A stretch of 64,000 nucleotides of DNA. It comes from Lacrimispora sphenoides (GTDB lineage Bacteria; Bacillota; Clostridia; Lachnospirales; Lachnospiraceae). Of this stretch, positions 193 through 21,381 are shown piece after piece. The notes beneath the pieces were generated by a model. The model ran no database searches. It was not told the DNA's origin and worked only from the letters and a program-made list of their open reading frames with translations. The stretch's first letter is position 1, and each line of letters starts with the position of its first letter. Location of the stretch: the NCBI RefSeq assembly GCF_900105215.1, contig NZ_FOIP01000002.1, positions 1,860,001-1,924,000 on the forward strand, written 5' to 3'. The position numbers were made by a program, and so were the translations under genes.

Positions 193-493
193 ATTTGTAC
201 AACGCCTTCCTTCTTTTTTCGGTCTCCGAAATAAGTTCTGTTTTAAAAATATATCATTTGTAACAAATTGTCAATGGAATCTTACCTATCTCTTTTATTT
301 TGAGCAATGTGCACGATTTTATTTTTTCGAATTTGTCAAAATCCTACAATACTTTGTGGCCATCAGCCGAATTTCATCTATTTCAAAATGTTTTCTATAT
401 TTATATCTTTTTGTGCATTTTTTGACAACATGCTTCATATATTCTATATAAGGCCTATTTCTATTTTCATAGCACTTATGGGAGAAAGTGAAA
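193..493. other. Divergent intergenic region, no gene seen
   Basis: A+T-rich spacer of about 300 bp between the ROK-type gene (minus) and the diguanylate cyclase gene (plus). It must carry both promoters. I see no RNA gene or clear operator in it. Confidence 0.5.
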
Positions 494-2137
494 ATGAACG
501 GAGAAACTTTTTTAGACCGCATTCCTTGCGGCATACTGAAGCTTAAAACTTATGAAGATCTTACCATTCTTTACTCCAATCAGGCGATTAAAGCATTATT
601 TCAAGAGCCTGCTTCGCTTCAGGACATGGTATGTGAATCAGAATATCCGGAGCTGCTTGCGGAAATTCGCAGCCACCTGACAGGCGAAGCAGCCAGTTTT
701 GAACTGGAATTCAAAGCAAAAATACAAAAAAGCTGTATCTGGTGTTCCTTACAATTGAATTATATCCCTGAGGAGGAACTATTGTACTGTGCAATCTTCG
801 ATATCACATGTATGAAAAAATTCCAGGAACACTTACGGATCCGTGAAGAACAATACCGGCTGGCAAGCCGGCATTCCGGCTGCCTTGTAAGCATCTATGA
901 CATCCCTTCCAGAACCCTTTCCCCCTCGCCAGAATTTTCCAGAACTTTCCCCTTTCCCTACACCAAGCCGCTCTCCCCTGAATTCCTTATCGAAAACGGC
1001 ATTGTGCACAAGGAAAGCGTCACCGACTTTCTGGAATTTTATGATGACATGGAAAAGGGGATACCCGAGGGAAAGTGCATCACACGCTTAAAAATATGTT
1101 CCGGAGATTATCATTGGTTTTCTTCGCAATACTCACTGGTGTGTACTGAGGAGCAAAAACCTCTCAGGGGAATCATATCCTACCAGGATATTACGGATCA
1201 ATATGAAAAAGAACTGGCTTATCAAAAGTGGATGGAATACATGCGCGAACAGAAAAAGGACTGTATCGGCTATTACGAATATAATTTAAAATTCGACTTA
1301 TTTGAAGAAATCATTGGAGAAATGACTCAGACCATGCCGGATTATGTCTCAAATTCTTTTTCCAGCATTATGACCTACATAGCAGAGAATCACATTTTTG
1401 AAGAAGACCGGGAGATGTTTCTAAAATTCTTCAATAAAAACCAATTGCTCTACCACTACTATCGTGGGAACCGGTCCTTACGGCTGGAACACCGGCGTAT
1501 ACGCCCTGATTCCACCGTCTACTGGGGGCTTGGCATGGTGCAGATTGTTTCCGATCCTTATACCGATACGATTAAGGCATTTATTCTCATTAAGGATATT
1601 GATACATCCAAACGGGAAGCCCTGAATCTTCAGGAACTTTCCAAACAGGATTCCCTTACCGGTTTGCTAAACAGGGCAACTGCCATACATGCAATCCGCA
1701 ATACATTAAAAAACAGCCAGGGGCATCACATCCTTATTATGCTGGATATTGACCGTTTCAAGCAACTGAATGATAATTACGGCCATCAGTTCGGGGATAA
1801 GGCCCTCCACCGCGCCGCTTCAAGACTTAAATCCGCTTTAAGGCGTGATGACATCTTTGGACGGCTGGGAGGCGATGAGTTCATCATATTATTAAAGGAT
1901 GTGGCTTATAGCATGGATTTGTACGCTCGTCTCGAAAATTTATGCAGTCTCATTGGCAGCGCTCTGGAACCGGAAGCACATATTTCCGGAAGTCTGGGAA
2001 CAGCCGCATACCCGGAAGATGGAACTATATTTGAGGAATTATATGAAAAGGCCGACATTGCTCTTTATCACGCAAAGAAACACGGCCGCAGCCAGTATGC
2101 GGTTTATGAACCTGGCATGAGCATGGCAAAATTATAA
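494..2137 (+). CDS. PAS-domain diguanylate cyclase (GGDEF)
   Basis: Predicted to condense two GTP into cyclic di-GMP. The 547-residue protein has no obvious membrane segment. Its N-terminal 370 residues look like successive PAS/PAC-type sensor modules (for example around 105-235 and 250-375). The C-terminal GGDEF domain spans about 380-540. The GGDEF motif is intact at residues 459-463, and RRDD (RxxD) sits exactly five residues before it, so the product-inhibition I-site is also present. No EAL or HD-GYP domain is attached. The ATG at 494 is preferred over GTG 488 because GGGAGAAA at 480-487 is correctly spaced for it. The ligand is unknown. Confidence 0.9.
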   Translation: MNGETFLDRIPCGILKLKTYEDLTILYSNQAIKALFQEPASLQDMVCESEYPELLAEIRSHLTGEAASFELEFKAKIQKSCIWCSLQLNYIPEEELLYCAIFDITCMKKFQEHLRIREEQYRLASRHSGCLVSIYDIPSRTLSPSPEFSRTFPFPYTKPLSPEFLIENGIVHKESVTDFLEFYDDMEKGIPEGKCITRLKICSGDYHWFSSQYSLVCTEEQKPLRGIISYQDITDQYEKELAYQKWMEYMREQKKDCIGYYEYNLKFDLFEEIIGEMTQTMPDYVSNSFSSIMTYIAENHIFEEDREMFLKFFNKNQLLYHYYRGNRSLRLEHRRIRPDSTVYWGLGMVQIVSDPYTDTIKAFILIKDIDTSKREALNLQELSKQDSLTGLLNRATAIHAIRNTLKNSQGHHILIMLDIDRFKQLNDNYGHQFGDKALHRAASRLKSALRRDDIFGRLGGDEFIILLKDVAYSMDLYARLENLCSLIGSALEPEAHISGSLGTAAYPEDGTIFEELYEKADIALYHAKKHGRSQYAVYEPGMSMAKL

Positions 2138-2489: not shown

Positions 2490-4361
2490 TTAATATTCCC
2501 TGGTTTTGATAACTGTCTCCGCATCCGACTGATCATACACCTTTTCTTCTGTTATAATCCGAAGAGGCATTTCCTTTCCTGCAACCATATCCCGGATCGC
2601 CTTCATAAGCGGAGGACCTAAAAGCGGACTGCATTCCACCGCACAGTTCAGCTTGCCGTCTATCATTGCCTGAAACGCCTCTTTCGTCGCATCCACGGAA
2701 ACAATCGTTATATCCTTCCCCGGTTTCAATCCATGTGCCTCCAATGCTTTAATCGCTCCAAGGGCCATATCGTCGTTGTGGGAATAGATAATATCCACAT
2801 CCCAGGTGTGACTTTTTATGTATTCCTCGACAACCTGTTTTCCTCCTTCGAAAGTAAAATCACCATAATCCGTATATACAATCTGATACTGGGGATTCTC
2901 CTCTAATATTTCGAAAAAACCTTTCTTTCTCTCTTCCGTAGGCGTCGCCCCTTCACTTCCCTGAAGCTCTAAAATATGAACAATCCCATGCTCCGGTTTT
3001 ACATGTTCCTTTAGCCAGCGCATGGCTCTTCGCCCTTCCTCTAAAAAATCAGCGCCAATATACGTGGTCGTCAAATCATCTCCCGCCTCAATTCTGCGGT
3101 CGGACATTACTACAGGAATATTGGCTTCCTTTGCCTCTTTCAGTACCGCATCCCATCCAGTCTCGACCACAGGAGAAACTACGATTACATCTACCTTCTC
3201 CTTAATAAACCTCCGGATCGCTTCAATCTGCTTGTTTTGAGACTGGTCTGCGCTGTCAAAAAGAAGTTCCATATTAAACTCCCTGGCTGCTTCCTGAATC
3301 GAGCGGGTATTGGCAAGCCTCCACTGGCTCTCCTGCCCCACCTGGGAATATCCTACGGTAATTCTCCTGCCATCGTCGATACTTTCTCTGTCAAGAGCAG
3401 CCAGATACTCACCGGCATTTTTAGGATAGATCGTATGACTTCTTAAAATAACCTGCTTGGGAACACCGCTCTCCTTCCGAAGAATATTAATGGCATATTG
3501 CACAGCCTCTTTCCCACCTGTAGGGCAGGAAATCGTTGCCGCAAGCTTTCCTTTTCTAACCAGGTCTACCCCTTCGTTTTCTCCGGTAAAGCCGTCGCAC
3601 CCGATGACCTTTATCTTCTCGGCAAGGTTCCTGTCTTTTAGTGCCTCATATGCTCCAAAGGCTACTGAATCATTGTTGGCAAATATCAGGGAAACACCTT
3701 TTAGTTCTTCCCGCATGGCAAAAACTGCATCATAGGCCGGATCCTTCATATCATTTTTCAAATCACAGACAGTCTTTTCTATATCAGGATAATCCCTGAT
3801 CACAGAATCAAAACCATCGCTTCGCTCCTCACTCTGAAGGGACCCTGCCGTTGCACGAAGTTCCAGAATCTTCCCCTTTCCGTTTTCAAGCAGCTGGACC
3901 GCACATTCTCCGCCCTGCTTCCCGATTAAATTATTGTCCGGACCGATAAATAAATTATAATCAAAGCCTTCCACGCTTCGGTCCATGACAATTACAGGAA
4001 CTCCCTCCAGATACACATCTCTGACTTTCTTTGTCAGACGGCTGGAATCACAGGGAGAAATGATCAATAGGTCAATGCCAAAATCCAGAAGCCTGTCAAC
4101 ATCCTTTTCCTGCTTCTCCACGCTGGAGGTGGCGTCTGCCGTTACGATCCTGATATTGGGATACTTTCCCGCTTCCTCCTGGATCTCATTTATCAGGGCA
4201 ACCCGCCATGCTTCCCGCATGTTTGCCTGAGAAACACCGATCACATACTCCACATCGCTTTTATAAACCGTCTGGGTAATTGCCCCGTTATATATACGGT
4301 ATCCCAAAAAGACAAATACCGATACCAGTAATACCATTAGTAATTTCGTTCTTTTTTCCAT
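2490..4361 (-). CDS. Membrane-tethered protein with two tandem sugar-binding (Peripla_BP_4) domains
   Basis: 623 residues. One N-terminal membrane segment (about 6-22) and no lipobox, so it is an anchored extracytoplasmic protein. Two type I periplasmic-binding domains follow (about 40-325 and 335-620), each of the size of a complete ribose/galactose-type binding protein. The second closely parallels the binding lipoprotein of the same locus: VGYSQVGQESQW against VGFAQIGQESGW, then VVSPVVETGWD, HNDDMALGAI and CNPLLGP/CSPLLGP-like blocks. Start chosen at ATG 4361: the kinase stop TAA lies one base upstream and AAAGGA is correctly spaced. Last gene of the locus. Inference: it presents sugar to the adjacent YesM-type kinase rather than to the permeases. 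Longer in-frame starts would read back into the kinase gene. Confidence 0.85.
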   Translation of the reverse strand: MEKRTKLLMVLLVSVFVFLGYRIYNGAITQTVYKSDVEYVIGVSQANMREAWRVALINEIQEEAGKYPNIRIVTADATSSVEKQEKDVDRLLDFGIDLLIISPCDSSRLTKKVRDVYLEGVPVIVMDRSVEGFDYNLFIGPDNNLIGKQGGECAVQLLENGKGKILELRATAGSLQSEERSDGFDSVIRDYPDIEKTVCDLKNDMKDPAYDAVFAMREELKGVSLIFANNDSVAFGAYEALKDRNLAEKIKVIGCDGFTGENEGVDLVRKGKLAATISCPTGGKEAVQYAINILRKESGVPKQVILRSHTIYPKNAGEYLAALDRESIDDGRRITVGYSQVGQESQWRLANTRSIQEAAREFNMELLFDSADQSQNKQIEAIRRFIKEKVDVIVVSPVVETGWDAVLKEAKEANIPVVMSDRRIEAGDDLTTTYIGADFLEEGRRAMRWLKEHVKPEHGIVHILELQGSEGATPTEERKKGFFEILEENPQYQIVYTDYGDFTFEGGKQVVEEYIKSHTWDVDIIYSHNDDMALGAIKALEAHGLKPGKDITIVSVDATKEAFQAMIDGKLNCAVECSPLLGPPLMKAIRDMVAGKEMPLRIITEEKVYDQSDAETVIKTREY

Positions 4362-4362
4362 T

Positions 4363-6153
4363 TTATCCTTTTTCAAGATCATTCTGAACTTCTTTCGGAA
4401 TCCGTATGACAATACGCGTCCCCTGCCCCTCTTTGCTTTCCACCAATACCTGAAACTGCTCACCGTACCGGATGCGCAGCCTCTCCTTAATATAAAACAA
4501 ACCAAAGCTTCTGTTTCTGCCGGCTTCTCCCGGTTCATTTAGCAATCTGGATAATTCCCATACCTTTTCTTCTTCCATACCCTTTCCGTCATCCCAGACT
4601 TCCAGGCTCACCCAATCATCTTCCATTCGTCCGGTGATCTTTAAATGCCCGTCTCCGTTTTTCATCTTAACCCCATGGTAAATGGAGTTCTCCACCAGCG
4701 GCTGCAGGATCATTTTCGGTAAAATCACTTTCATGCAGTCTTCTTCTGCCTGAATTTCATACTGTACCTTAGGCCCGTAACGAATTTTCTGTATGTAGAG
4801 ATAATTGGAAATATATCGGATTTCTTCTTCAATGGTAATATAGTCTTTGCCCTTGCTTAAGCTGATTCGAAAAACATTGGTAAGGGCATCCACAAGATGA
4901 ACAATGTCATATGCAGAATGCTCCCTGGCCATCCAGCCTATGGTGTCCAGAGTATTGTATAAGAAATGCGGCTTAAACTGTTCCTGAACTGTCTTTAGCT
5001 GTGCTTTCCGCTTGTTTTCCTGTTCTTTATAAACCTCCTCCATCAGTTCTTGTATTCGCTCAAGCATCTGATTGAACCGACGGCCAAGCTCACTGACCTC
5101 ATCCAGATAATTGCCTTCAAACCGAACGGATAAATTTCCTTTTTCCGTCTCCTTCATTAAGTTGCGGAGCCTGACAATAGGTTTTGTAACCGTTTCTGAA
5201 ATTTTTACCGCTACAATAAATACCGTTAGAATTGTCAAGACCAAAACCCAGCCAAACATAATCAGCATGGTATTGATTCCGCCCATGATTTCACGGTAGG
5301 ATGAGACACTGACAGTTTTCCAGCCAGTATAGGCGGATTTCTGATAGCTGATCTGATACTTTTCCCCATTGGTAACCGCGGTTACAGGTTCTTCTTCATT
5401 CCAAAGCCATTCCGGGCGGATTCGGTAGACAATTTTATTGGTAGGCGCATATACTAAATGATTCTGCTCATCCAGGACGAATACAAATCCATTTTCACCG
5501 ATGTTCGCATCCTGGATGGCGGAGGAAATAATTTCATGCTTTACATCAAACAGCAATACGCCCACTCTCTCCCCTGTCTCCGGGTCTATAACAGCTTTCA
5601 TTACCGAAAATACATCATCAATGCTGTAGGCGGCCTCCGTAACAATATTCCTTCCGGTAACATTACTGATGATCTGCATTTCACCTGGAGATGCCGCTGC
5701 TTTTTCATACCAGACTTCCTTGATAAACGGGTCCCGGGAGATTCTGGACATCCCGGTTCCCACATACATATCATGCTCCGTAGCAAAAAAGATGCCCGCA
5801 ATTTCATCATGAGTTTCCGCCACTGTCTCAAAGCTGTTTTTCAGCGCTGCTTCATACTCTTTCCAGCGGTCATCCTCAGCGGATGGGATCTTATTCAGAT
5901 GCATTGGCTCAATAATCTTGATCAGCATATTCGCAGTCTTTTCAATACTGCTTATGTAGATATCCGTTGTATGCTGGACCTGACCGACCAGCAGGGACGT
6001 ATGCTGGGTCACATTGCGCTCCGCCTCTCTGGTTGAGCTGATAATCCCCAATAAACCCACAAAGCAAAAAGGAATGAGCGCAATAAAAATATGAGAATTG
6101 ATCATTTTATCACGAATTTTCATATCCATGAATCTTTTCTTCCAATATTTCAT
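4363..6153 (-). CDS. YesM-type sensor histidine kinase (Cache-HAMP-HisKA-HATPase)
   Basis: Sensor of a two-component system, 596 residues. A first membrane segment (about 15-35), a Cache-like extracellular domain and a second membrane segment (around residue 300) are followed by a HAMP linker. The His_kinase domain carries FKPHFLYNT with the phospho-acceptor His. The ATPase has N-box ENSIYHG and G-box DDGKGME. Start ATG 6153 has AGGAG 8 nt upstream; ATG 6174 (GGGGA) is a possible alternative. It is followed after one base by the double sugar-binding protein, and the cognate AraC-type regulator is the first gene of the same locus. The likely input is sugar outside the cell. Confidence 0.92.
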   Translation of the reverse strand: MKYWKKRFMDMKIRDKMINSHIFIALIPFCFVGLLGIISSTREAERNVTQHTSLLVGQVQHTTDIYISSIEKTANMLIKIIEPMHLNKIPSAEDDRWKEYEAALKNSFETVAETHDEIAGIFFATEHDMYVGTGMSRISRDPFIKEVWYEKAAASPGEMQIISNVTGRNIVTEAAYSIDDVFSVMKAVIDPETGERVGVLLFDVKHEIISSAIQDANIGENGFVFVLDEQNHLVYAPTNKIVYRIRPEWLWNEEEPVTAVTNGEKYQISYQKSAYTGWKTVSVSSYREIMGGINTMLIMFGWVLVLTILTVFIVAVKISETVTKPIVRLRNLMKETEKGNLSVRFEGNYLDEVSELGRRFNQMLERIQELMEEVYKEQENKRKAQLKTVQEQFKPHFLYNTLDTIGWMAREHSAYDIVHLVDALTNVFRISLSKGKDYITIEEEIRYISNYLYIQKIRYGPKVQYEIQAEEDCMKVILPKMILQPLVENSIYHGVKMKNGDGHLKITGRMEDDWVSLEVWDDGKGMEEEKVWELSRLLNEPGEAGRNRSFGLFYIKERLRIRYGEQFQVLVESKEGQGTRIVIRIPKEVQNDLEKG

Positions 6154-6239
6154 TGCTCTCACTCCTATTTTCATAACATATCCCCTGCTTCATCCAGTAT
6201 ACCGAAGTTAACAGACTCTTACAACTGCATTATGCTTTA

Positions 6240-7250
6240 TTATTCGTTCTTCCCCTTTGATTTTTCTGTGCGGATCGCAATGATTCTCTGGATTACGATA
6301 AAGAAACAAAGAAGCGCCGCAATGGTAACTTTCGTCCACCAGGTATTTAAATTCTGATAGGTAACGATTGTCTGGATAATCCCCTCTATCATGACTCCGA
6401 CTACCGTACCCGCTACAGTTCCTACGCCTCCGGTCAGCAGGGTACCGCCGATTACAGCGGATGAAAGTGCATCCAGTTCAAGACCCAGATTTTGGAGCCC
6501 GAATCCAGCCAGAGTATAAAAACTGAACACGATTCCTCCGAGAGCGGCGCAAAAGCTGCTGATTCCGTATGCCGCAATTTTCGTTCTTGCAACATTTAAT
6601 CCCATGAGGCTTGCGGACGTTTCGCCGCCTCCCAGTGCGTATAAACACCTGCCAAACTTTGTATATCTCAGGGTATAGACCGCAGCCGCAAAAACAATCA
6701 AAAGGATAAATACATAGTAATAAATTTTCCCGTTCCACGCTTTTGCTTCTCCCAGGTGAACCGCCACCTTACCAAGAGCCATGGTCTTAAAAAACGGATC
6801 ACTGATGGGAATGGAGCGTTCACTGATTACAACGCAAAGTCCCCGCATTAAAAACTGGCCTGCCAAAGTCACAATGAACGGCTGAAGCTTAAAATAATGA
6901 ATCAAAGCCCCTTGGGTACAGCCTATGATGATTCCCGCAAGAAGCATCAGAAGGATCACCAGAAATGCCGGAACTCCCCGTTCCAGCAGGTACGCAGAGC
7001 CTACACCGGTAAATGCAATGGTAGAGGCAATGGAGATATCGATCCCTCCGCTTATTAGCACAAAGGTAGCTCCGATTGCCGCTATCATTAAGTATGCGTT
7101 GTCATTAAAGAGGTTTAAAAAGGTTGATAAAGATAAAAAGTTATTGTACTTTACAGAACCAAATAGAAACATCAGGACAAACAGCACAACGGTGATAACC
7201 AGTGAAATATTATTGATCTGAACCTTTTTACTTTTTCCCGTCTGTTCCAT
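6240..7250 (-). CDS. yjfF: Sugar ABC transporter permease, YjfF-like
   Basis: 336-residue integral membrane protein of the BPD_transp_2 (ribose/galactofuranose) family, with about eight to ten hydrophobic helices. The family signature near the N-terminus (GGIDISIAS) and near the C-terminus (LSSAVIGGTLLTGGVG) are visible. Its ATG overlaps the stop of the preceding permease (TGATG), so the two are translationally coupled. By position and family it is the second permease subunit of the YtfQRT-YjfF importer. The sugar (galactofuranose in E. coli) is inferred from the family, not proven here. Confidence 0.88.
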   Translation of the reverse strand: MEQTGKSKKVQINNISLVITVVLFVLMFLFGSVKYNNFLSLSTFLNLFNDNAYLMIAAIGATFVLISGGIDISIASTIAFTGVGSAYLLERGVPAFLVILLMLLAGIIIGCTQGALIHYFKLQPFIVTLAGQFLMRGLCVVISERSIPISDPFFKTMALGKVAVHLGEAKAWNGKIYYYVFILLIVFAAAVYTLRYTKFGRCLYALGGGETSASLMGLNVARTKIAAYGISSFCAALGGIVFSFYTLAGFGLQNLGLELDALSSAVIGGTLLTGGVGTVAGTVVGVMIEGIIQTIVTYQNLNTWWTKVTIAALLCFFIVIQRIIAIRTEKSKGKNE

Positions 7251-8284
7251 CAGTTACCAACCACCTTTCTGTTTATCATTTTGCGCTTGATGACCAGATC
7301 CTTAAACTGTTTTGACTGCGACAGACAGATGATAATAATCAACAATGCCTTTAACACACGGATATAAGCCGCCGGAACTCCCAGTGCCAGTACTGTTGTT
7401 GTGATGCTTTGTACGATCAATGCTCCTATGACGCTGGCTGGAATGGAAAAACGCCCGCCCATTAAGTTGGTTCCTCCTATTGCTACGGCAAGAATGGCAT
7501 CCATTTCAATCCCCAGCCCCGCATTATTGCAGTCCGCGCCTTTAATCCCAGCACTTTCAATTAAACCGGCCACCGCAGCAAAGGCTCCCGAAATTGTATA
7601 GATTGCCAGCAGCATCCGGTCAACCTTAATGCCCACGTACTTTGAGGCAGTCGGATTGCAGCCCACGGATTCCAAAAACAGGCCAAAGGCTGTTCTTCCT
7701 GTAAATAGTACCAGAAAACCCACTAGAAAAAGCACAATAAACAAGGGGAAAGGAATACCGAGAATATAACCTCCATTGATAAAATAATAGGCTTCCGAAG
7801 TAATCGTAACAATCTTTCCCCTGGTAATCAGCTGTGCGATTCCCCTGCCCGCCACCATTAAAATCATGGTGGCTACAATTGGCTGAATCTTTATTTTAGC
7901 CACTAAAAAGCCATTCCAGATGCCGCTGACCGTTCCTGCAAGGATCGCGATAATAATCGCCGCGACAACATTCCCATGGAATGACGGAAAAATATTCCCG
8001 TTGACAATGCTGCAGGCAATGGCTCCGCTGATCGCCATGATAGAGCCTACGGAAATATCGGTTCCGCCCGTTGCCAGTATCATAGTCATGCCGCCAGCCA
8101 GTATCATGAGCTTGCTCCCATTTCTTACAATGTCAATAATACGTCCGTATAAGTGCGCATCCACTATGGATAGTGTAAAAAATTCTCCCTTGCTTACAAT
8201 ACCGTTAAAGAGCAGAATTATCATAAATATGATGAGGGGGCGGAAATACTGTTTTCCTGTCAAACGATTCCAGATTTCTCTCAT
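7250..8284 (-). CDS. ytfT: Sugar ABC transporter permease, YtfT-like
   Basis: 344-residue multi-spanning permease of the BPD_transp_2 family, with GGTDISVGS near residue 75 and AVAIGGTNLMGG toward the C-terminus. It starts inside the ATPase stop codon (ATGA overlap at 8281-8284) and ends in a TGATG overlap with the next permease, so ATPase and both permeases form one coupled unit. Pairs with the YjfF-like subunit as the transmembrane channel for an imported sugar. Confidence 0.88.
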   Translation of the reverse strand: MREIWNRLTGKQYFRPLIIFMIILLFNGIVSKGEFFTLSIVDAHLYGRIIDIVRNGSKLMILAGGMTMILATGGTDISVGSIMAISGAIACSIVNGNIFPSFHGNVVAAIIIAILAGTVSGIWNGFLVAKIKIQPIVATMILMVAGRGIAQLITRGKIVTITSEAYYFINGGYILGIPFPLFIVLFLVGFLVLFTGRTAFGLFLESVGCNPTASKYVGIKVDRMLLAIYTISGAFAAVAGLIESAGIKGADCNNAGLGIEMDAILAVAIGGTNLMGGRFSIPASVIGALIVQSITTTVLALGVPAAYIRVLKALLIIIICLSQSKQFKDLVIKRKMINRKVVGN

Positions 8285-9810
8285 GACACTTCACCTCCAG
8301 CCATAATATGCATAATTGCTTCTTCCGATATTTCTTTTCCGTTTAGCTCTCCTACCTGCTTCATATCACGGAGCACAATCATCCTGGTGCAGCAGCGGAG
8401 CATCTCATCAATCTCCGATGATATGAAGAGCACCGCCATCCCTCTTCCTGCTAGATCCATAACTATTTTCTGTATCTCCGCCTTGGTCCCGATATCGATT
8501 CCCCTGGTTGGTTCATCAAGCATCAGAAATTCCGGATCCGTGGCAAGCCATCTGGCAAGAATTACTTTTTGCTGGTTTCCTCCGCTTAAATTCTTAATTA
8601 ACTGTTCTGCGTCCGGTGTTTTGATCTGAAGCTTTTCAATATATTCCTTCGTAAGCTCCTCCGCTTCTTTCCTTGAAATCTTATGGAAGATGCCCCGTTT
8701 CACCTGAAGGGCAAGAATGATATTTTCCCAGATGGATAGCTCTCCGATAATTCCCTCTGTCTTCCGGTTTTCCGGGCAAAAAGCGATTCCGTTTCGGATT
8801 GCGTCTAAGGGAGAATGGAGGTGAGCCATCTCATTTTTCACCTTTACTTCTCCTTCGCTTACGGGATCTATTCCGAATAAGACCTTGGCTGTCTCCGAAC
8901 GCCCGGAGCCTAAGAGCCCGGAAAAGCCCAGAACCTCTCCCATTTTTACTTGAAGCTCAAACCCCTTAACCGTTCCAGGGCTGCTGACATTGACCAGTTC
9001 AATAAAAGTCTCCTTTTCCTGCCCCTCTGCTTCCTCCGGCCGTTTTGCATTCATGGCTTCCTTAAGCCCTGCATAGTCCTTGCCTATCATTTTTCCCACC
9101 AGTTCTACTCTTGGCAGCTCTTTCGTCAGATAGGTTCCCACATATTTTCCGTTTCGAAGTACGGTGATTCTGTCGGTGACTTCATACACCTGATCCAGAA
9201 AATGTGTAACAAAAACAATTCCCATGCCCTCTTCGCGGAGCTTTCTCATAATTTGAAACAACTTATCGACCTCAGCGGAAGAAAGGCTGCTGGTGGGTTC
9301 ATCCAAGATCAGAACCTTGGCTTCAATATCACTGGCCCTTGCAATGGCCACCATCTGCTGGATCGCTACAGAGTAATGATCCAGATTTTTTGTAACATTT
9401 ATATGTAAATCAAATTTATCCAGCAGTTCACTGGCGTCGGCATTGATTTTTTTCCAATTGATGGTTCCAAACCGGTTTCTCGGTTCCCGCCCAATATAAA
9501 TATTTTCCGCCACGGAAAGATTGGGGCAAAGATTGACTTCCTGGTATACCGTTGAAATTCCTTCGTTTTGCGCTTCCTGTGTGGATCTCGGATTGATCTG
9601 TCTCCCGTCTAACTCAATGACTCCCCGGTCCTTTGCTTCCACTCCGGTCAGCACTTTAATGAGCGTTGATTTTCCCGCACCGTTTTCCCCCAGCAAGGCA
9701 TGTATTTCCCCCCGATTTAAATCAAACTGCACATCAGCCAAAGCAATAACTGCTTTCCCAAATGCCTTGGATATATTTCTCGCTGTCAAAAGCTGATTCC
9801 CAGCACTCAT
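8281..9810 (-). CDS. ytfR: Sugar ABC transporter ATPase, YtfR/MglA type
   Basis: 509 residues with two fused ABC domains, as in RbsA, MglA and YtfR. First domain: Walker A GENGAGKST at 41-49 and Walker B LILDEPTSSL. Second domain: LSGGNQQK signature and LMLDEPTRGIDIG; its Walker A position is degenerate (GLLGSGRSE), as is usual for the second domain of this family. Energises the two permeases from the cytoplasm. ATG 9810 follows a good AGGAGG. Confidence 0.93.
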   Translation of the reverse strand: MSAGNQLLTARNISKAFGKAVIALADVQFDLNRGEIHALLGENGAGKSTLIKVLTGVEAKDRGVIELDGRQINPRSTQEAQNEGISTVYQEVNLCPNLSVAENIYIGREPRNRFGTINWKKINADASELLDKFDLHINVTKNLDHYSVAIQQMVAIARASDIEAKVLILDEPTSSLSSAEVDKLFQIMRKLREEGMGIVFVTHFLDQVYEVTDRITVLRNGKYVGTYLTKELPRVELVGKMIGKDYAGLKEAMNAKRPEEAEGQEKETFIELVNVSSPGTVKGFELQVKMGEVLGFSGLLGSGRSETAKVLFGIDPVSEGEVKVKNEMAHLHSPLDAIRNGIAFCPENRKTEGIIGELSIWENIILALQVKRGIFHKISRKEAEELTKEYIEKLQIKTPDAEQLIKNLSGGNQQKVILARWLATDPEFLMLDEPTRGIDIGTKAEIQKIVMDLAGRGMAVLFISSEIDEMLRCCTRMIVLRDMKQVGELNGKEISEEAIMHIMAGGEVS

Positions 9811-9858
9811 GGCGTTTCCTCCTCGCTTTCCAATTAAGAGGGCATTTCCCCTGATATG

Positions 9859-9902
9859 AAAAGGGTTGCTGCAAAAATAATGATATACTTTTGCAGCAAC
9901 CC
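9859..9902 (-). terminator. Intercistronic hairpin between binding-protein and ATPase genes
   Basis: Perfect 14-bp stem (GGGTTGCTGCAAAA / TTTTGCAGCAACCC) with a 12-nt loop and only four T after it on the minus strand. It lies 6 nt past the stop of the binding-protein gene. Such partial terminators or mRNA stabilisers commonly let a binding protein be made in excess of the membrane subunits. Confidence 0.7.
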
Positions 9903-9908
9903 CGCGGT

Positions 9909-10967
9909 TTAATATTTGCGGTCCGGAAGTACCTTAGCTGCCATATCAGCAGTAAATACGCCATCTACTGATTTCACCCATTTATCAACAGACTGGCCTG
10001 CCTTCAGCTTTGCTGCTGTTTCAAATAAAAGCGGCCCAAGCAGTGGATTACATTCTACGGTACAATTTGCCTCCCCGGCTGCCATTGCTTCAAAGATTCC
10101 GCGGACACCATCGATGGAAACGATCTTGATGTCTTCGCCCGGCTTTAATCCTGCCTCTTTGATTGCCTCGATTGCTCCAAGGGCCATGTCGTCATTGTGC
10201 GCATAAACGCCCTTGATATCCTTATTGGATTTAAGGAAAGACTCCATAACTTCTTTTCCCTGGGCTCTGGTGAAATCACCGGTCTGGGAAGCTACGATCT
10301 CAATCCCCGGATAGCTTGCCTTGATCTCATCATCAAATCCGGTTTTACGGTCCGTTGCTGCGGAAGCGCCTACCGTTCCTTCCAGTTCAACAATTTTTCC
10401 ATTTTCTCCGAGCAGCTTTGCCATTTCCTTTGCGGCCATCTTGCCTTCTTCAATGAAGTCAGAGCCGATAAAGGTTGCGTATAAATCTTCCCCGACATCC
10501 GCTCTCCTGTCCAGAAGAATAATCGGAATCCCCGCTTCTTTCGCCTCAGCAAATACCTGATCCCATCCGGTTTCCACAACCGGTGCAAGACCAATGACAT
10601 CGACCCCCTGCTCAATGAAGTTCTTGATTGCTTTAATCTGATTTTCCTGCTTCTGCTGTGCATCTGCAAAAAGAAGCTCCACCTTATCCCCGTTTTCAGA
10701 TGCATAGGTCTGAATGGAAAGGGTTTCTGCGTCACGCCAGCCGGATTCCTGACCGATCTGGGCAAATCCGACTACCAGCTTTTCTCCTGACGCGTCGGGA
10801 GTTTTGGCCGTGGTTTCCTCTGCCTTTGCTGTGGTCTCAACCTGTGCGGCCGTAGTCTGGGGCGCCGCTGTGGTTGCGGTAGAACTGCTGGCTCCGCTGC
10901 TGCAGGCGGCTAAGGAAACCGCTGCCATGGAAGCACACAGCAACACGCTTAAAATTCTTTTTTTCAT
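9909..10967 (-). CDS. ytfQ: Sugar-binding lipoprotein, YtfQ-like
   Basis: 352-residue extracytoplasmic binding protein for the YtfR/YtfT/YjfF importer. A lipoprotein signal peptide ends in the lipobox LAAC (Cys22), followed by an Ala/Thr-rich linker to about residue 60 and one Peripla_BP_4 domain to the end. Characteristic blocks: QIGQESGWR, LAPVVETGWD, HNDDMALGA and CNPLLGP. ATG 10967 is chosen because AGGAGG lies at the right distance and the signal peptide begins there; the longer open frame upstream has neither. Its closest relative in the window is the second half of the tethered double-domain protein. Confidence 0.92.
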   Translation of the reverse strand: MKKRILSVLLCASMAAVSLAACSSGASSSTATTAAPQTTAAQVETTAKAEETTAKTPDASGEKLVVGFAQIGQESGWRDAETLSIQTYASENGDKVELLFADAQQKQENQIKAIKNFIEQGVDVIGLAPVVETGWDQVFAEAKEAGIPIILLDRRADVGEDLYATFIGSDFIEEGKMAAKEMAKLLGENGKIVELEGTVGASAATDRKTGFDDEIKASYPGIEIVASQTGDFTRAQGKEVMESFLKSNKDIKGVYAHNDDMALGAIEAIKEAGLKPGEDIKIVSIDGVRGIFEAMAAGEANCTVECNPLLGPLLFETAAKLKAGQSVDKWVKSVDGVFTADMAAKVLPDRKY

Positions 10968-11061
10968 TTTAATGATCCTCCTTTTTTGTTTTAACGATAC
11001 GTTTATTATGCCGGAAGGAGGAGGGAAAGTCTTTGCAATAATTTGAGTAAAAGGTATAAAA

Positions 11062-12288
11062 TCATTGCATGGTGGAGGCATGGTTATCATTTCTAATTAG
11101 CCTCCGGTATTCCGCAGGGCTGACCCCTAGGTTCTTTTTAAACACATTGCTGAAATAATGCTGGTTTGCATACCCGGTAAGCTCCGCAATTTCGTAAATT
11201 TTCAATTCGCCGTTATGTAAAAGTTCTATTGCCTTTCGGATCCTGACACTGGTTAAATAATCGATAAAGGTGACTCCCATCTCTTTGCGGAACATCCTGC
11301 TTAAATGGGGAACAGAAAGATTCACATGATCCGCCGCATCCTGAAAGGAAAAATCCTCCCGTGAGAAGTTGTCCTCGATATAGAACTTCACATCCTTAAT
11401 CACAGAGGAACCGGTCTCCAGCTCCTTCAACCGGCTGACTGCCGTTTCATAGGTTTCAGCTAAAGCTCCGTAATCATCTCCGTTCCCCTGTATTACTACA
11501 CTGCGTACCGGCAAACGGGATTCCAGCATTTTACAATAGGTTTCTGATTGCTCCTCTGCAATTTCCTGGGCCACCTTTTTTGAGATCACCACCAGATTTC
11601 CGTGCCTGTCCTGGCAGCTGTTTGGGTTCACAAGCCCCTGAAACATTTCATTTGCAATATTCTCAGCTACAAAAAACAGCAGATCTTCATTCCAGGTGCT
11701 TTTTACGTCTTCCATCTTCTGATATTCCAGGGAAACAACTGTAATTGTAAACGGCTCCGGAAGCAGCAGATTTAAATACTGGGAACGTTCCATGATTTCT
11801 TCTCTTGTATAATGCCCTTCCAAAGCCCTCTGCAAAAAGTTAGAGGCAAGATAAGTGCGGTTTTGTGCCAGCATACTCTTTGCCCAATCAAGATATTTAT
11901 CTTCACTTGCCTCTCTCTGCAATCTCTCCCGGACCCGCTGCATCATCTCATCAAAAGGCCCTTCCATCAGAGGTTTGAGAAGATACTCAAAGACCCCCAA
12001 CTTCAGCGCTTCTCTGGCATATTCAAACCGGTCATAACCAGTGATGATCACCGCCACCGCCCTAGGATTTATTTCTTTTAAGCTTTTAATGAATTGAAGA
12101 CCATTAAGAAATGGCATGTTAATATCTACAAAATAAACATCCGGCGAAATGTCTTTTGCCAGTTCTAAAGCCATCACTCCATCCTCTGCTTCTGCTGCCA
12201 ACTCAAAATCACTGTATTGTCTCAAAAAACTGATAATCCCCCGGCGAATGATATACTCATCATCCGCTACCAGTACTTTATACCCCAT
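11062..12288 (-). CDS. YesN-type response regulator with AraC DNA-binding domain
   Basis: 408 residues. N-terminal receiver with acidic pair D9/D10, phospho-acceptor D55 (VDINMP) and conserved Lys in LLKP near 105. A middle linker of about 170 residues precedes a C-terminal AraC domain with two helix-turn-helices (from about 300), including the AELTGYANQHYFSNVFKK block. ATG 12288 follows AGGAGG. First gene of the sugar-import locus and the expected partner of the YesM-type kinase encoded five genes downstream. It probably activates the transporter promoter when sugar is sensed. Confidence 0.92.
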   Translation of the reverse strand: MGYKVLVADDEYIIRRGIISFLRQYSDFELAAEAEDGVMALELAKDISPDVYFVDINMPFLNGLQFIKSLKEINPRAVAVIITGYDRFEYAREALKLGVFEYLLKPLMEGPFDEMMQRVRERLQREASEDKYLDWAKSMLAQNRTYLASNFLQRALEGHYTREEIMERSQYLNLLLPEPFTITVVSLEYQKMEDVKSTWNEDLLFFVAENIANEMFQGLVNPNSCQDRHGNLVVISKKVAQEIAEEQSETYCKMLESRLPVRSVVIQGNGDDYGALAETYETAVSRLKELETGSSVIKDVKFYIEDNFSREDFSFQDAADHVNLSVPHLSRMFRKEMGVTFIDYLTSVRIRKAIELLHNGELKIYEIAELTGYANQHYFSNVFKKNLGVSPAEYRRLIRNDNHASTMQ

Positions 12289-12631: not shown

Positions 12632-15600
12632 TTATTTTATTTTTTTAATGCCTAATTGACATAAAACAAACGCAAAGAATGATACCAAGGATAATAACAG
12701 ATAAACGTTCCAGGATACACTGGTGTCGCCTGTTTTCGGTAAACCGTCTATTTCACCTATTTCGTTTATTTCACCTATTTCGTTTACTTCGTTTGTTTCA
12801 CTGTTTCCTTTCGGTATTGACTGGTCATCTACAACAATTTCCTCGATGGTCTCTTCGTTGACACTGTTCCCAGATATAACACCAGGTCCACCGGTATTGT
12901 TACTGCTTCCTACAGGTCCTCGGGAACTGCTGCTACTTCCACTCCCGCTACTACTTCCTCCTCCGCTACTTCCGCCGGATCCGCTGGAATTGCCACCGCT
13001 TCCACTTCCGCCGCTACTTCCGCCGCTGGTTTCACTTCCGCCTCCGGTTTCACTTCCTCCACCAGTTTCGTTTCCTCCACCGATTTCACTTCCTCCGCCA
13101 GTTTCGTTTTCTCCACCAGTTTCACTACCTCCACCAGTTTCGTTTTCTCCGCCGGTTTCGCTTCCTCCGCCGGTTTCGCTTCCTCCGCCGGTTTCGCTTC
13201 CTCCGCCGGTTTCGTTTCCTCCACCGGTTTCACTTCCTCCGCCAGTTTCGTTTCCTCCACCGGTTTCACTTCCTCCACCCGTTTCGTTTCCTCCGCCAGT
13301 TTCACTACCTCCACCAGTTTCGTTTCCTCCGCCGGTTTCACTTCCTCCGCCAATTTCGTTTCCTCCGCCAGTTTCACTTCCTCCGCCGGTTTCGTTTCCT
13401 CCTCCGGTTTCGCTTCCTCCGCCAGTTTCACTTCCTCCACCAGTTTCACTTCCTCCACCAGTTTCGTTTCCTCCGCCGGTTTCGCTTCCTCCGCCGGTTT
13501 CACTACCTCCACCAGTTTCGTTTCCTCCGCCAGTTTCACTTCCTCCACCAGTTTCGTTTCCTCCACCGGTTTCACTTCCTCCACCGGTTTCACTTCCTCC
13601 ACCAGTTTCGTTTCCTCCGCCAGTTTCACTTCCTCCACCAGTTTCGTTTCCTCCACCGGTTTCACTTCCTCCACCAGTTTCGTTTCCTCCACCGGTTTCA
13701 CTTCCTCCGCCAGTTTCGTTTCCTCCTCCGGTTTCACTTCCTCCGCCAGTTTCACTTCCTCCGCCAGTTTCGTTTCCTCCGCCAGTTTCGTTTCCTCCTC
13801 CGGTTTCGTTTCCTCCGCCGGTTTCACTTCCTCCGCCGGTTTCACTTCCTCCGCCGGTTTCGCTTCCTCCGCCGGTTTCGTTTCCTCCACCAGTTTCGCT
13901 TCCTCCACCGGTTTCACTTCCTCCGCCAGTTTCGTTTCCTCCTCCGGTTTCACTTCCGCCTCCGGTTTCCGTTCCTCCGCCAGTTTCAGGTTCCCCACCG
14001 GTTTCATTGCCTCCTTCGGTTTCAGTTTCCTGCCAATCGGGTATACCATTCGGCTCATCTTCATTGCCATTGCCGTTAATATCGTTTTTATCTTTTATAT
14101 CCAACGAATAAACGAGTACTAATTTCCCATCTGGTATGGGATCTTCCTCTATGTCCTCAGGATAGGTAAAGGAAATTTCCCTGCCTTCCAACTGATAGGA
14201 CGAAAGACCGCCTTTATTATCCCATTCATCATTGGTCAAAATATCGTCAAACACGTAGTTTTCTGCATGATATGTCTGGGTTTTAGGTGCAATATAAATG
14301 CCTGCCGAACCGACTTTTTCATATAAGGTAGCTATTTCTATATTCTCTCGCTCACTGACAGGCTGAGGATCCCCAACGGTGCCGTCATAAAGACTATAGA
14401 ATACCTTTACCGTTGAATAAGGCTGCTGATAGTCAGGGATCCCATCCGGATCAGTTCCCGGAATCGCTCCTCGGTTGTCAACAGCATAATAGAGCGTGTG
14501 CGTTCCCAAACCATTCTCAGTATCGCTCATTGTCAGTGTCCAATCAGAAATTGCTGCATTAACCGGTAACTGATTCAGTGTATATTCCCTGTCAAAGATA
14601 TAATGATCTTCTCCGCTTCCTAATTGTATTTCCTTAGCAATTGAATAGTTGTAATCATTGTTCTTCGGACCTGAAACAGGAAATGGTCCGCCAATTTCGG
14701 CCGGGATGCTGCTGACAGATGTACCATCCCAAATTTCGTATAAAACGCTGCCACTTGTCAAAGCAGCTTTTGCCCGTAGTTCCAATACATTAATGTTTTT
14801 TAATGCATTAGTACCTGACAGATTGAAAACATCACCATGACCCTGAGAATAGTTTATAATTTCAGCATTTGCTCCAGATCTTAGAGTTGCTGAGTATTGT
14901 GCTCCATCCAACACCCACTGGTAAGGGGCATCCGGGGAGGTTACGTAGTTGTTTTCAAGGGCCACCTGATTTCCTGGGTTGATATTCCCTGTTATAGATA
15001 CATTATTTTCAGGTAAAGACACCCAGGAACGAATCCCATTTGTTTTTATGTTCAAACTAGCATTGCTGGAGCTCTTGATTACATAAGAGTTTGTGTCGCT
15101 CTTGCTATTGAACAATACAACATTTTGGGGATTTGTAAATGAAATGCTGGGGCTGCTGTCCCGCAAGGTAATCAGGGATTCTGCTTGCGAATTATTCTTG
15201 GCAATAAGGTTTACTTCGGCACCATCTGCAATGCTGATAGTGTTTGCACTGACCATCGAGTTGTTGGCATTGGCAGCTGAATCAGCATAATCCACAACAT
15301 ATGTCCACTTTGCCCCTTCACCGACACGAATTGAGTCCGCCGTAAAATAGGCAGGAAGATTGCTTACATCATTTGTATTAAACTTTTTATCAGCTTTGAT
15401 ATCGAAGACAACACTTGCCTGATCCCCAATAATAAGGCTGCCAAGCTTATAGTAATCGGTAATAAATCCATTGCCGCCGCCTACATGGTGATATTCAAAC
15501 ACAGCATTTTCTCCAACGATAAATGGAGTGGAGTAGGCGGATGTATAGGTACCAATTAAACCGGTTGTATATGTAGATTGCTTTGTTTTTCCCGCCTCAT

Positions 15601-16507
15601 CCTTAATGATAAGAGAAGCGCCGTCTGCTACCTTCACGTAGCTGTCCCCATACCAGTAAATATAGAAGATCGGATCAATATCACCGAGAACACCCCCGCC
15701 GTCTGCCGGAGAGTCCTGTTTGGCGATGGTATTATTACCTTCAAATGTGATAAAATTTGCGGCAATGGTTTCAGAAGCGTGGGTATCCTGCCACAAAGCT
15801 CCATAAGACGCAGAGCCAGATGACGGCAAACTTCCTCCATATCCATCTGAATCTACTCCGCTACCTCCTGATCCATTGCGGTAACTCATCGTTATGTCGC
15901 AGTCTCTAAATAATACCTGCGGTTTATAAACCGGATATATAGCAATATCGCCCATACCCGGTCCTTTGTAAGTAACATGATCAAAGGTAATCTGCACATC
16001 ATTCATGACATTACCGGCCGGAAAATAACAGCCAACCTCACTACTGCCGTACCAAGTAATATCTTTCATCGTAAATGAATTTACCTTGCTCGCGTTAGGA
16101 AAATAAAAATTGCCATTTTCGACAATCGTATGGGGCCACTTAAATATAATCTTATATTGGTTCTGGCCATCGATTACGAAGCTGCCGTTACCACCGGCAT
16201 TTGCTTTATTTCCAACCAAAATCCCTTGCGGTTGTCCAGAAAAACCCGGCTGAGCCGTACTTTGATAATTACTGTTCCAATTACCCTGCGAATTTGTCAT
16301 TCCATACTCTATAACAACATCATCGGCAAGCGTAATTTTCCAGGCATTATTACTGTTAACTGCCTGAATAAAGTCTTTGGCAGTGCTTACCGTAACCTCC
16401 CCAGTCTCCTCTGCAAATATCCTTATCGGGAACATCGCACAGAGCAAAACCATCACCAAAAGCAAGCTGATTATTTTGCTGCTTTTACGGTGTTTCATTG
16501 TTTGCAT
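12632..16507 (-). CDS. LPXTG cell-wall-anchored surface protein with GGG(S/N)ET repeats
   Basis: 1291 residues. Signal peptide to about A32. About 600 residues of beta-rich sequence full of Asn, Asp and Gly follow, reminiscent of right-handed beta-helix or pectate-lyase-like adhesins (fold inferred). Next come two short Ca-binding-like stretches (DPDGIPDYQ, NGIPDWQ near 705 and 815) and about 54 GGG(S/N)ET hexapeptides (832-1160). A Ser/Gly linker leads to LPKTG at 1256-1260, a hydrophobic helix and a positive tail: a complete sortase signal. ATG 16507 follows AGGAGG by 7 nt, and the signal peptide confirms it. No sortase gene is in the window. The repeat tract is probably a flexible wall-spanning stalk. 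Confidence 0.9.
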   Translation of the reverse strand: MQTMKHRKSSKIISLLLVMVLLCAMFPIRIFAEETGEVTVSTAKDFIQAVNSNNAWKITLADDVVIEYGMTNSQGNWNSNYQSTAQPGFSGQPQGILVGNKANAGGNGSFVIDGQNQYKIIFKWPHTIVENGNFYFPNASKVNSFTMKDITWYGSSEVGCYFPAGNVMNDVQITFDHVTYKGPGMGDIAIYPVYKPQVLFRDCDITMSYRNGSGGSGVDSDGYGGSLPSSGSASYGALWQDTHASETIAANFITFEGNNTIAKQDSPADGGGVLGDIDPIFYIYWYGDSYVKVADGASLIIKDEAGKTKQSTYTTGLIGTYTSAYSTPFIVGENAVFEYHHVGGGNGFITDYYKLGSLIIGDQASVVFDIKADKKFNTNDVSNLPAYFTADSIRVGEGAKWTYVVDYADSAANANNSMVSANTISIADGAEVNLIAKNNSQAESLITLRDSSPSISFTNPQNVVLFNSKSDTNSYVIKSSSNASLNIKTNGIRSWVSLPENNVSITGNINPGNQVALENNYVTSPDAPYQWVLDGAQYSATLRSGANAEIINYSQGHGDVFNLSGTNALKNINVLELRAKAALTSGSVLYEIWDGTSVSSIPAEIGGPFPVSGPKNNDYNYSIAKEIQLGSGEDHYIFDREYTLNQLPVNAAISDWTLTMSDTENGLGTHTLYYAVDNRGAIPGTDPDGIPDYQQPYSTVKVFYSLYDGTVGDPQPVSERENIEIATLYEKVGSAGIYIAPKTQTYHAENYVFDDILTNDEWDNKGGLSSYQLEGREISFTYPEDIEEDPIPDGKLVLVYSLDIKDKNDINGNGNEDEPNGIPDWQETETEGGNETGGEPETGGGTETGGGSETGGGNETGGGSETGGGSETGGGNETGGGSETGGGSETGGGSETGGGNETGGGNETGGGNETGGGSETGGGSETGGGNETGGGSETGGGNETGGGSETGGGNETGGGSETGGGNETGGGSETGGGSETGGGNETGGGSETGGGNETGGGSETGGGSETGGGNETGGGSETGGGSETGGGSETGGGNETGGGSETGGGNEIGGGSETGGGNETGGGSETGGGNETGGGSETGGGNETGGGSETGGGNETGGGSETGGGSETGGGSETGGENETGGGSETGGENETGGGSEIGGGNETGGGSETGGGSETSGGSSGGSGSGGNSSGSGGSSGGGSSSGSGSSSSSRGPVGSSNNTGGPGVISGNSVNEETIEEIVVDDQSIPKGNSETNEVNEIGEINEIGEIDGLPKTGDTSVSWNVYLLLSLVSFFAFVLCQLGIKKIK
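13028..14014 (-). repeat. About 54 tandem 18-bp units coding GGG(S/N)ET
   Basis: A minisatellite inside the surface-protein gene. Each unit encodes GGGSET or GGGNET, with rare variants (GGENET, GGGNEI, GGGSEI, GGGTET). Copies differ mainly at third positions, so the array is old enough to have diverged yet still in frame. Unit length is a multiple of three, so copy-number change would alter stalk length without frameshift. Confidence 0.95.
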
Positions 16508-17140
16508 ATGTTTTCCTCCTATTTTTTGATCCCCTTTTATTACTGGATTTGAAGGGCATCCCGTTCTTATTAGTCCCAACCGCTTTTCCGGCGAAAGATG
16601 AAGGTCCTAACTCTTTTCATAATTATTAATCTTTAAAGCTTTCTATTTAGGGATAACATCCCTACTGTAAGATTCATCTTTAAAGTTATAACAGGTACAT
16701 ATAACGCCCCCATAACATCCGTAATATAACAAAATATAATAGGCGTTTTTTATCAAAATGTATTCACTCACGGAACTCTGCGCAGTCTTTAAGATACCGC
16801 CTTTTTTGCTGCATCATCTTTATTATAGAAGCCGCAAACCCTGCTTAATTTCATTACTTCTTCTTCATCTGCTGTATAAGCGCCCCGTTAAGCTGCAAAA
16901 TAATAATCTGAATTGCATAATTTATTGTTATAAGAAATTTTTCCGAAGCCTCCTTTCCAAAAAGTATTAATTTAATTAAACTTTACCTCGGAAGTATAGT
17001 ATAAAAAACTGCATTTATTAAACCCATGTAGTGAATTAGGGTTTTGGTGTATTAAATTTCCCACCAATGGAAGAAAGTACTATTCCTTCTCATACAGGTA
17101 CAAAAAAAATCAACCGATTGTAAATAATCTAAAATCCCCA
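16508..17140. other. Gene-free A+T-rich spacer
   Basis: Holds the promoter and 5' leader of the surface-protein gene on the minus strand, which has several small inverted repeats such as AGGGAT/ATCCCT near 16652-16664. The rest has no convincing open frame or RNA gene. Confidence 0.45.
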
Positions 17141-20982: not shown

Positions 20983-21003
20983 CTAATCAGGTTTAAATTA
21001 TAA

Positions 21004-21087
21004 TGCGGGAGATGGGACTTGAACCCACACGATCATACAACCACAAGATCCTTAGTCTTGCCTGTCTGCCAATTCCAGCACTCCCGC
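21004..21087 (-). tRNA. tRNA-Leu(AAG), minus-strand copy
   Basis: 84 nt, acceptor GCGGGAG / CTCCCGC, discriminator A, long variable arm. Anticodon stem CAAGA/TCTTG encloses CTAAGGA, so the anticodon is AAG. No encoded CCA. It differs from the plus-strand copy at 21382 by two bases in the variable arm. Confidence 0.93.
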
Positions 21088-21139
21088 ATGTCATATAAAT
21101 ATTGAAAACCACACAGCTATGACAATCTGCATAGTTTCA

Positions 21140-21223
21140 TGCAGAAGAAGGGACTTGAACCCTCAAGGTATTGCTACCACACGGACCTGAACCGTGCGCG
21201 TCTGCCAATTCCGCCACTTCTGC
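21140..21223 (-). tRNA. tRNA-Leu(CAG), copy 2
   Basis: 84 nt, identical to the copy at 2285-2368 and in the same orientation. It lies 52 nt upstream of tRNA-Leu(AAG) on the same strand, so the two are probably co-transcribed. Confidence 0.95.
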
Positions 21224-21340
21224 ATTTCGTTGTTATCTGTCGTAACAACAATAGCTATTATAGTATACATGCTCTTATATGTCAACAACATTTCTCCAAA
21301 TTTTTCAAATATTTTTTTTGTATATATTTTTCAAAAAATA

Positions 21341-21369: not shown

Positions 21370-21381
21370 TATGTTCGTTGT

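Follow-up and report, generated by a model that had tools for sequence, protein, structure and literature searches.

A tandem sugar-binding protein encoded with a YesM-YesN system and a ytfQRT-yjfF-type importer: a conserved and apparently undescribed candidate sensor of Firmicutes and Spirochaetes

What does a protein with two complete sugar-binding domains do directly behind a sensor kinase gene, in an operon whose importer has a binding protein of its own? The window, meaning the whole stretch of 64,000 nt that was analysed (positions 1,860,001 to 1,924,000 of contig NZ_FOIP01000002.1, assembly GCF_900105215.1, Lacrimispora sphenoides), holds a run of seven genes on the minus strand (2490-12288) in the order yesN, ytfQ, ytfR, ytfT, yjfF, a YesM-type kinase and the double binding protein. 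The first (11062-12288) encodes a YesN-type response regulator with a receiver and an AraC-type helix-turn-helix domain (Pfam), and the second (9909-10967, start at MKKRILS) the importer's own binding lipoprotein YtfQ, as assigned from its open reading frame (ORF), Pfam and NCBI models. Directly 3' of ytfQ on the same strand, a consensus scan picks out an 18-pair hairpin with a T-run (9862-9903), which may lower the expression of the downstream genes relative to ytfQ. The ATPase gene ytfR (8281-9810) and the permease genes ytfT (7250-8284) and yjfF (6240-7250) follow. The top NCBI models for all four importer components are those of the E. coli galactofuranose system, each scoring under its cut-off: 355.2 bits against a curated cut-off of 510 for YtfQ (NCBIfam NF041827), 686.2 against 850 for YtfR, 297.8 against 535 for YtfT and 362.7 against 363, or 0.3 bits short, for YjfF. 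The kinase (4363-6174) has dCache_1, HAMP, His_kinase and HATPase_c domains in Pfam, and its outer domain returned weak chemoreceptor matches and nothing else when compared with solved structures.

The kinase stop codon occupies 4365-4363, and a single base (4362) separates it from the double gene (2490-4361), which runs from an ATG at 4361 to a stop at 2490-2492 and encodes 623 aa; an alternative in-frame ATG at 4382, within the kinase gene, makes a longer start possible. Pfam detects two Peripla_BP_4 stretches (288.5 bits together), the remaining matches being overlapping families of the same fold, and these matches and the ORF coordinates agree with the original prediction of two binding domains behind a single N-terminal anchor, one base after the kinase gene. 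The anchor is a predicted transmembrane segment at about residues 6-25 (4287-4346), the single hydrophobic segment present, and a lipobox scan of the N-terminus found no lipobox cysteine. The first domain, D1 (residues 38-316; 3414-4250), is a sensor-type sugar-binding domain whose nearest solved chain, 2x7x, is labelled SENSOR PROTEIN and matches over its full length (1.5e-39). A linker of about 15 residues leads to D2 (residues 334-623; 2493-3362), a YtfQ/GafA-type furanose-binding domain with the GafA/YtfQ proteins 6hyh (1.1e-91) and 2vk2 (1.7e-61) as its nearest solved chains. The expectation that the second domain would be the closer to the transporter's lipoprotein is borne out, D2 sharing 48% identity with the window's YtfQ while the top match of D1 within the genome (by E-value) reaches 26%. 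Whether the protein is a routine annotated family has a two-part answer: each half falls in annotated families, but the NCBI model search gave the tandem architecture no named family, and the double protein scores 343.8 bits against NF041827 with both halves together, below the cut-off of 510.

The architecture is sporadic within genomes and broad across lineages. A protein search scored 7,999 candidates, 845 of which passed an E-value of 1e-20, and the best 120 of these 845 homologues each cover at least 94% of the query. Full-length double proteins occur in at least 3 of 391 genomes of the window's class and, in two samples of its family, in at least 3 of 200 and at least 5 of 397 genomes. 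Counts in the families of a Clostridium-like genome (G366), a Paenibacillus (G714) and a Peribacillus (G713) were at least 8/146, 15/104 and 5/43 genomes, respectively, and the order of a Treponema (G712) holds at least 12 copies in 11 of 146 genomes; these values are lower bounds because only the best first-look candidates of each genome were scored. A scan of named genomes gave at least 80 loci, at least 32 of them doubles. The impression that the architecture "seems unusual" therefore fits its sporadic occurrence per genome, as in the window's family and the Paenibacillus family, but not its wide distribution.

A survey of the architecture beside ytfQRT-yjfF and a kinase, as the original prediction had suggested, shows that it recurs: 70 double loci were tallied in Firmicutes and Spirochaetes, 56 of them distinct (D1 identity under 97%). 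One draft-genome locus with a broken double ORF (L072) is counted among the 70 and not among the 57 distinct double proteins compared below. The 70 loci include a kinase in 66, YesN in 67, ytfQ in 67, ytfR in 64, and ytfT and yjfF in 63 each. All four kinase-less loci (L065, L068, L221, L287) run into a contig end, and at L048 no YesN match was found within 2.5 kb before ytfQ, where an unassigned 390-aa ORF sits. At L309 both the kinase ORF and the ytfQ ORF are divided in two, as is the double gene of L072; these are either draft-genome errors or real breaks. Gene order is variable. The window and some Lachnospiraceae have yesN first and the kinase and double gene last, the kinase comes after yjfF in the Clostridium-like family, and at many other loci the kinase, YesN and double genes are adjacent. 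This trio remains together where the importer lies on the opposite strand (L064, L282) and where the importer is split around it (L054, L061-L063). Anchors are likewise recurrent, with prediction assigning a transmembrane segment to 38 of the 57 distinct double proteins and a lipobox to 14, the other 5 not being callable.

Dedicated sensing proteins of this general kind are known. XylFII of the XylFII-LytS system of Clostridium beijerinckii has one binding domain, and D1 finds 5xsj, which we take to be XylFII, as a weak match (2e-8). The closest precedent is CuaDSR of Ruminiclostridium cellulolyticum, in which CuaD is described as a predicted lipoprotein that binds the kinase CuaS in two-hybrid tests, where the transport protein CuaA does not, and CuaR as a regulator of the YesN/AraC kind (PMC10384115). 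The discussion section of that paper also mentions sugar systems with two binding proteins in C. beijerinckii and G. stearothermophilus, and a 2026 survey of Parageobacillus lipoproteins puts forward the same idea for a YesM-YesN locus (PMC13068155). Like XylFII-LytS and CuaDSR, the present systems place a putative sensing binding protein beside a kinase and a regulator that would control an adjacent ABC importer, and the importer has a separate binding protein in the same cluster (ytfQ, 67/70 loci). As in CuaDSR the sensing protein is membrane-anchored (52 of 57 by prediction), but it differs from the single-domain CuaD in having two tandem domains from two families and in its dCache kinase. 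Among the papers listed by full-text literature searches (in two cases 15 of 23 and 15 of 11,429), titles and abstract beginnings showed no tandem sensor of this kind. The double protein is real and conserved, and an apparently undescribed variant of the binding-protein-assisted kinase.

With moderate confidence, the double protein can be read as the sensing binding protein of a three-component system in which D1 faces the kinase and D2 binds a furanose. It would sit outside the membrane on its tether, next to the dCache domain of the YesM-type kinase from the adjacent gene, with D1 as the older, kinase-facing part. D2 would bind a furanose, of the galactofuranose or arabinofuranose class, carried by the neighbouring ytfQRT-yjfF importer; on closing around the sugar it would relay a signal via D1 to the kinase, which would phosphorylate the YesN-type regulator and raise expression of the importer operon. 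The anatomy, gene order, conservation of the module, domain families and pocket conservation come directly from the data; we infer the kinase contact, the identity of the ligand, the direction of the response and the relay from D2 to D1. Counting in favour of this reading are the conservation of the module, kinases that follow D1, the occurrence of D1 alone in the sensor position, the kept pocket of D2, the cohesion of the trio where the importer moves, the evolutionary rates of YtfT and YtfQ, and the precedent of CuaD and CuaS.

The kinase evidence comes from a tree of 76 sequences; this and the other trees in the analysis are "quick" trees without bootstrap. The 50 D1-linked kinases form one starred clade (99) and consist of 35 from fused systems, 9 from single-D1 systems with ytfQ and 6 from single-D1 systems with another importer. 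Outside it fall 5 kinases beside single D2-like proteins, their putative partners, 16 others and 5 further kinases from the same loci, which were kept out of the D1-linked set since a YesN-type gene of its own lies next to each. Judged from this tree, the kinase subfamily follows D1 (50/50) and not D2 (0/5). Rate covariation was computed on sets excluding near-identical proteins, incomplete systems, L070, L309 and odd kinase ORF lengths. Between the kinase outer domain and D1 it was 0.42 with 26 systems, the top of 28 pairs though not surely above D2, and fell to a non-significant 0.10 (p 0.40) with 45. Rate covariation was accordingly dropped as proof of contact between D1 and the kinase, and its fall counts against the preferred reading.

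The rates of the permease speak to a different explanation, in which the double protein is a second, tethered transport protein whose D2 hands sugar to YtfT-YjfF, with the kinase affected via the transporter. D2 has the pocket of YtfQ, and other ABC systems, such as GlnP and OpuA, use tandem binding domains for transport. Unlike proteins of the GlnP type, however, the double protein has no fused permease, being made up of two binding domains and one predicted transmembrane segment. In 45 systems the rate of YtfT covaries with that of YtfQ (0.28) and not with that of D2 (-0.28), a difference of 0.56 (bootstrap 0.16 to 0.91), and does not follow D1 either, which speaks against a plain transport role. 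A separate ytfQ at nearly all loci, and a double gene that remains with the kinase and YesN genes at loci with an importer on the opposite strand, point the same way, and a transport function is highly unlikely. The proposal of a kinase-associated, membrane-tethered sensing binding protein draws support from these rates and from the recurrence of this type of kinase at 66 of the 70 loci.

The ancestry of D2 is old. A clade joining Lachnospiraceae D2 with Lachnospiraceae YtfQ is rejected (p-AU 0.0002), and a recent copy of the window's ytfQ was discarded as its source; the claim that D2 arose from the transporter's binding protein holds to the extent that the two are relatives and fails as a copying event local to the Lachnospiraceae. 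The tree groups D2 apart from the transport YtfQ proteins, and a single clade of 41 fused D2 domains is not rejected (AU p 0.65). On these trees D2 is an ancient, long-diverged relative of YtfQ/GafA, and a single origin of the D1-D2 fusion is compatible with them. D2 resembles the YtfQ/GafA proteins (2vk2, 5ocp, 6hbd, 6hbm, 6hyh) in fold family and in twelve checked pocket positions, and differs from them in its fusion to D1, its tether, its separate tree group and its sub-cut-off score.

Homology with YtfQ and ribose-binding protein, together with background knowledge of these pockets, guided the choice of the twelve positions. For the GafA pocket, PMC10191376 names a Trp, a Phe, Arg38 and Asp111. 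All twelve D2 positions are kept in 57 of 57 distinct fused proteins, the window's included, with alternatives allowed at five (Trp/Phe, Ser/Thr/Ala, Val/Thr/Ile, Phe/Met and Phe/Tyr) and the remaining seven identical throughout. Among the best 120 of the 845 homologues, the window's own protein included, the D2 stacking aromatic is Phe or Tyr in all 120, position 438 is Glu in 7 and position 439 is not Phe in 3. D2-like domains also occur by themselves: of five single D2-like proteins, four (Paenibacillus) fall inside the D2 group in the free tree and one (L174) among YtfQ. These proteins (L096 14555-15601, L109 16620-17678, L112 14701-15810, L115 14560-15606 and L174 10420-11400) have lipobox-like N-termini and lie next to ytfQRT-yjfF, and the YesM-type kinase in their vicinity belongs to another subfamily; they are possibly a one-domain solution to the same task.

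D1 comes from a different, sensor-type family. We take 2x7x to be the sensor domain of BT1754, a Bacteroides hybrid two-component protein; in such hybrids sensor and kinase share one polypeptide, unlike the kinase and binding domains here, which lie on separate genes, with D1 in a separate tethered protein. The periplasmic domain of BT1754 is reported to sense fructose (PMC3404733). With Asp/Glu and Trp/Phe/Tyr allowed at one position each, the twelve pocket positions of D1 are all kept in 20 of the 57 distinct fused proteins, L065, which is without the start of D1, being scored as not kept (it also has Ser230). The seven positions that match the identical seven of D2 are kept in 37, 34, 56, 57, 45, 41 and 57 of the 57. 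Changes differ between lineages, with Gly in place of Asp127 in 23 proteins, Gln in place of Arg53 in 18, Ser in place of Asn230 in 16, Arg in place of Trp52 in 11 and Thr in place of Arg180 in 11. The pocket is kept in the fused D1 of the Clostridium-like family and in most of those from Spirochaetes, and altered in the Lachnospiraceae, Paenibacillus and Bacillus groups, the Paenibacillus group (11/57 proteins) at 5 of 12 positions. In the window, the site that aligns with the stacking aromatic of D2 holds Asp204 (3750-3752), where 47 of the 57 have Trp. The best 120 of the 845 homologues all lack this D1 aromatic (Glu 81, Asp 19, Ala 13, other 7), and keep the other checked D1 positions in 111-120 of them except Asn230 (67).

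Drift of this kind is not full decay. On a tree of 41 proteins the D1 pocket changed 27 times over twelve columns (the whole-domain mean being 9.0 changes per column), and the D2 pocket 8 times (the set used for these counts differs by one position, 278 in place of 105, from that used for kept pockets). Of 20,000 randomly drawn column sets, none had as few changes as either pocket; a gap as large as that between D1 and D2 arose in 31% of random homologous sets. A fully decayed D1 pocket is rejected, since the pocket is far more conserved than random columns and many fused D1 are kept, and D1 may still bind something. The constrained D1 pocket and the 31% figure count against the preferred reading.

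The constraint also bears on the idea with which the analysis began, that of a two-ligand or ratio sensor in which each domain binds a sugar of its own and the kinase responds to their combination or ratio. Besides the constraint on D1 and the fully kept third of its pockets, position 105 is Glu in 12 of 12 D1-type Paenibacillaceae proteins but Asp in 50 of the 57 fused proteins, which might reflect a change of ligand, and the aromatic lost in the window's group has mostly become an acid (Glu or Asp in 100 of the best 120 homologues), which is not random. On the other side, the D1 sensor of a Spirochaete locus (L296), which serves a D1-type importer, also has Asp105; the pocket of the Paenibacillus group is heavily altered; and D2 is absent from 10 of 18 Clostridium-like systems with the same operon in the same order. 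With the pocket kept in every D2 and in 20 of 57 D1, and D2 absent from part of that family, a two-ligand sensor is not favoured and appears unlikely, the constraint on D1 notwithstanding.

The systems without D2 serve as natural experiments. Eighteen genomes of the Clostridium-like family have a strong D1 (over 400 bits; three weaker matches are left out), fused in 8 and single in 10. Both forms have the order YesN, D1 or D1-D2, ytfQ, ytfR, ytfT, yjfF and kinase, complete in 9 of the 10 singles and in 6 of the 8 fused systems, the other three being cut by contig ends, and two genera contain both forms. D1 without D2 at the same operon counts against the preferred reading, which leaves the sugar binder there unaccounted for. 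In Paenibacillaceae, 6 of 6 systems comprise the kinase, YesN and a single D1 in the sensor position. Next to these lie genes for an ATPase, a permease and another protein of the D1 type, which presumably serves the importer as its binding protein, and L296 has the same set. Two genomes (G711, G755) contain a D1-type importer system as well as a double system. Systems of this parallel composition, with the same type of kinase, lie at L226, L227, L251-L254 and L296.

The D1 tree separates the ytfQ-linked domains (42 fused, 10 single) from 20 other singles (support 91, not starred). Fused D1 as one clade is rejected (p-AU 3e-13) and the ten ytfQ-linked singles as one clade are not (p 0.22); the singles nest among the fused domains, which makes at least one loss of D2 in the Clostridium-like family probable. 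The proposition that single-domain D1 is always intact was also rejected: all twelve positions are kept in 21 of 32 singles, comprising 19 of 22 that are not ytfQ-linked and 2 of 10 that are, all ten of the latter Clostridium-like. In ytfQ-linked systems the D1 pocket therefore drifts with or without an attached D2. On an 11-position set, 5 of the 10 Clostridium-like singles and all fused D1 of that family are fully kept.

Three further explanations can be set against these observations. The most plausible of them, held tentatively, is that a receptor was re-aimed by fusion: an older cassette of kinase, regulator and D1, which would still work with D1-type importers in Paenibacillaceae and a Spirochaete, would have joined ytfQRT-yjfF by adding a YtfQ-type domain, after which the D1 site drifted and D1 became a docking adaptor. 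D2 would then supply the new ligand, and the signal would cross one clamshell domain after the other. The greater age of the D1-only cassette is read from a tree with an unclean outgroup. It is distinctly improbable that D1 instead serves as adaptor for a sugar-loaded protein of the YtfQ type, which would dock on it in trans as YtfQ in the single-D1 Clostridium systems and in cis as D2. Single D1 does sit beside ytfQ in the gene order of the fused form, and several such D1 have changed pockets; yet D1 and YtfQ show no covariation in rate (-0.26 over 45 fused systems), and in CuaDSR, the only similar system to have been tested, the kinase is not bound by the transport protein (PMC10384115). Finally, D1 and D2 could bind the same furanose at different affinities, widening the range, such that either suffices and D2 can be lost. 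The probable loss of D2 and the intact 11-position pockets of the fused Clostridium-like D1 fit this scheme, but the single D1 of that family are less well kept (5/10), and D1 pockets are changed in the Lachnospiraceae, Paenibacillus and Bacillus groups; two sites for one sugar are very improbable.

Neighbouring genes gave no clear ligand among the 20 scanned of 113 neighbour ORFs at eleven loci. Near double systems lie a GH43 protein (L061), an FGGY kinase with a ROK protein (L217) and a chemoreceptor (L047), and otherwise housekeeping genes or ORFs of no family. Near D1-type systems are three LacI-type regulators, two zinc dehydrogenases, a MocA-type oxidoreductase, DUF4185 and DUF2961 proteins, a cohesin-domain protein and a permease. 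The chemoreceptor, a methyl-accepting chemotaxis protein of Ruminiclostridium cellobioparum (5115-6842 of L047, plus strand), is encoded between yjfF and the kinase, and the same binding proteins may serve chemotaxis there. In the window, a tRNA-Leu gene (2285-2368) lies immediately behind the double gene, and a GGDEF diguanylate cyclase with a weak PAS match (488-2137, plus strand) is convergent with the operon. Further away, a 1315-aa ORF with a TTG start (12632-16579, minus strand) has a very long Gly-rich repeat (GGGSETGGGNETGGG...), which keeps long ORFs open in other frames (12723-14111, plus; 12910-14070, minus); it matches no Pfam family at 1e-6, and its LPKTGD-like C-terminus is presumably a sortase motif. 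Four tRNA genes (three Leu, one Asn) lie on both strands at 21003-21603, and two nearby genes for xanthine dehydrogenase-type molybdopterin-binding hydroxylases, one with its own 2Fe-2S domain, at 38175-40337 and 41640-44204 (both plus).

The tandem protein and its partners constitute a conserved, putative signalling module of Firmicutes and Spirochaetes, and they offer a natural test of how kinases read binding proteins, as one operon occurs with D1 alone or with D1-D2 inside single genera and one kinase subfamily is found with two importers. Should the sensor have been re-aimed by fusion, it would have been built by plugging one binding protein onto another, and swapping D2 could yield sensors for new sugars, provided that D1 works as a general adaptor.
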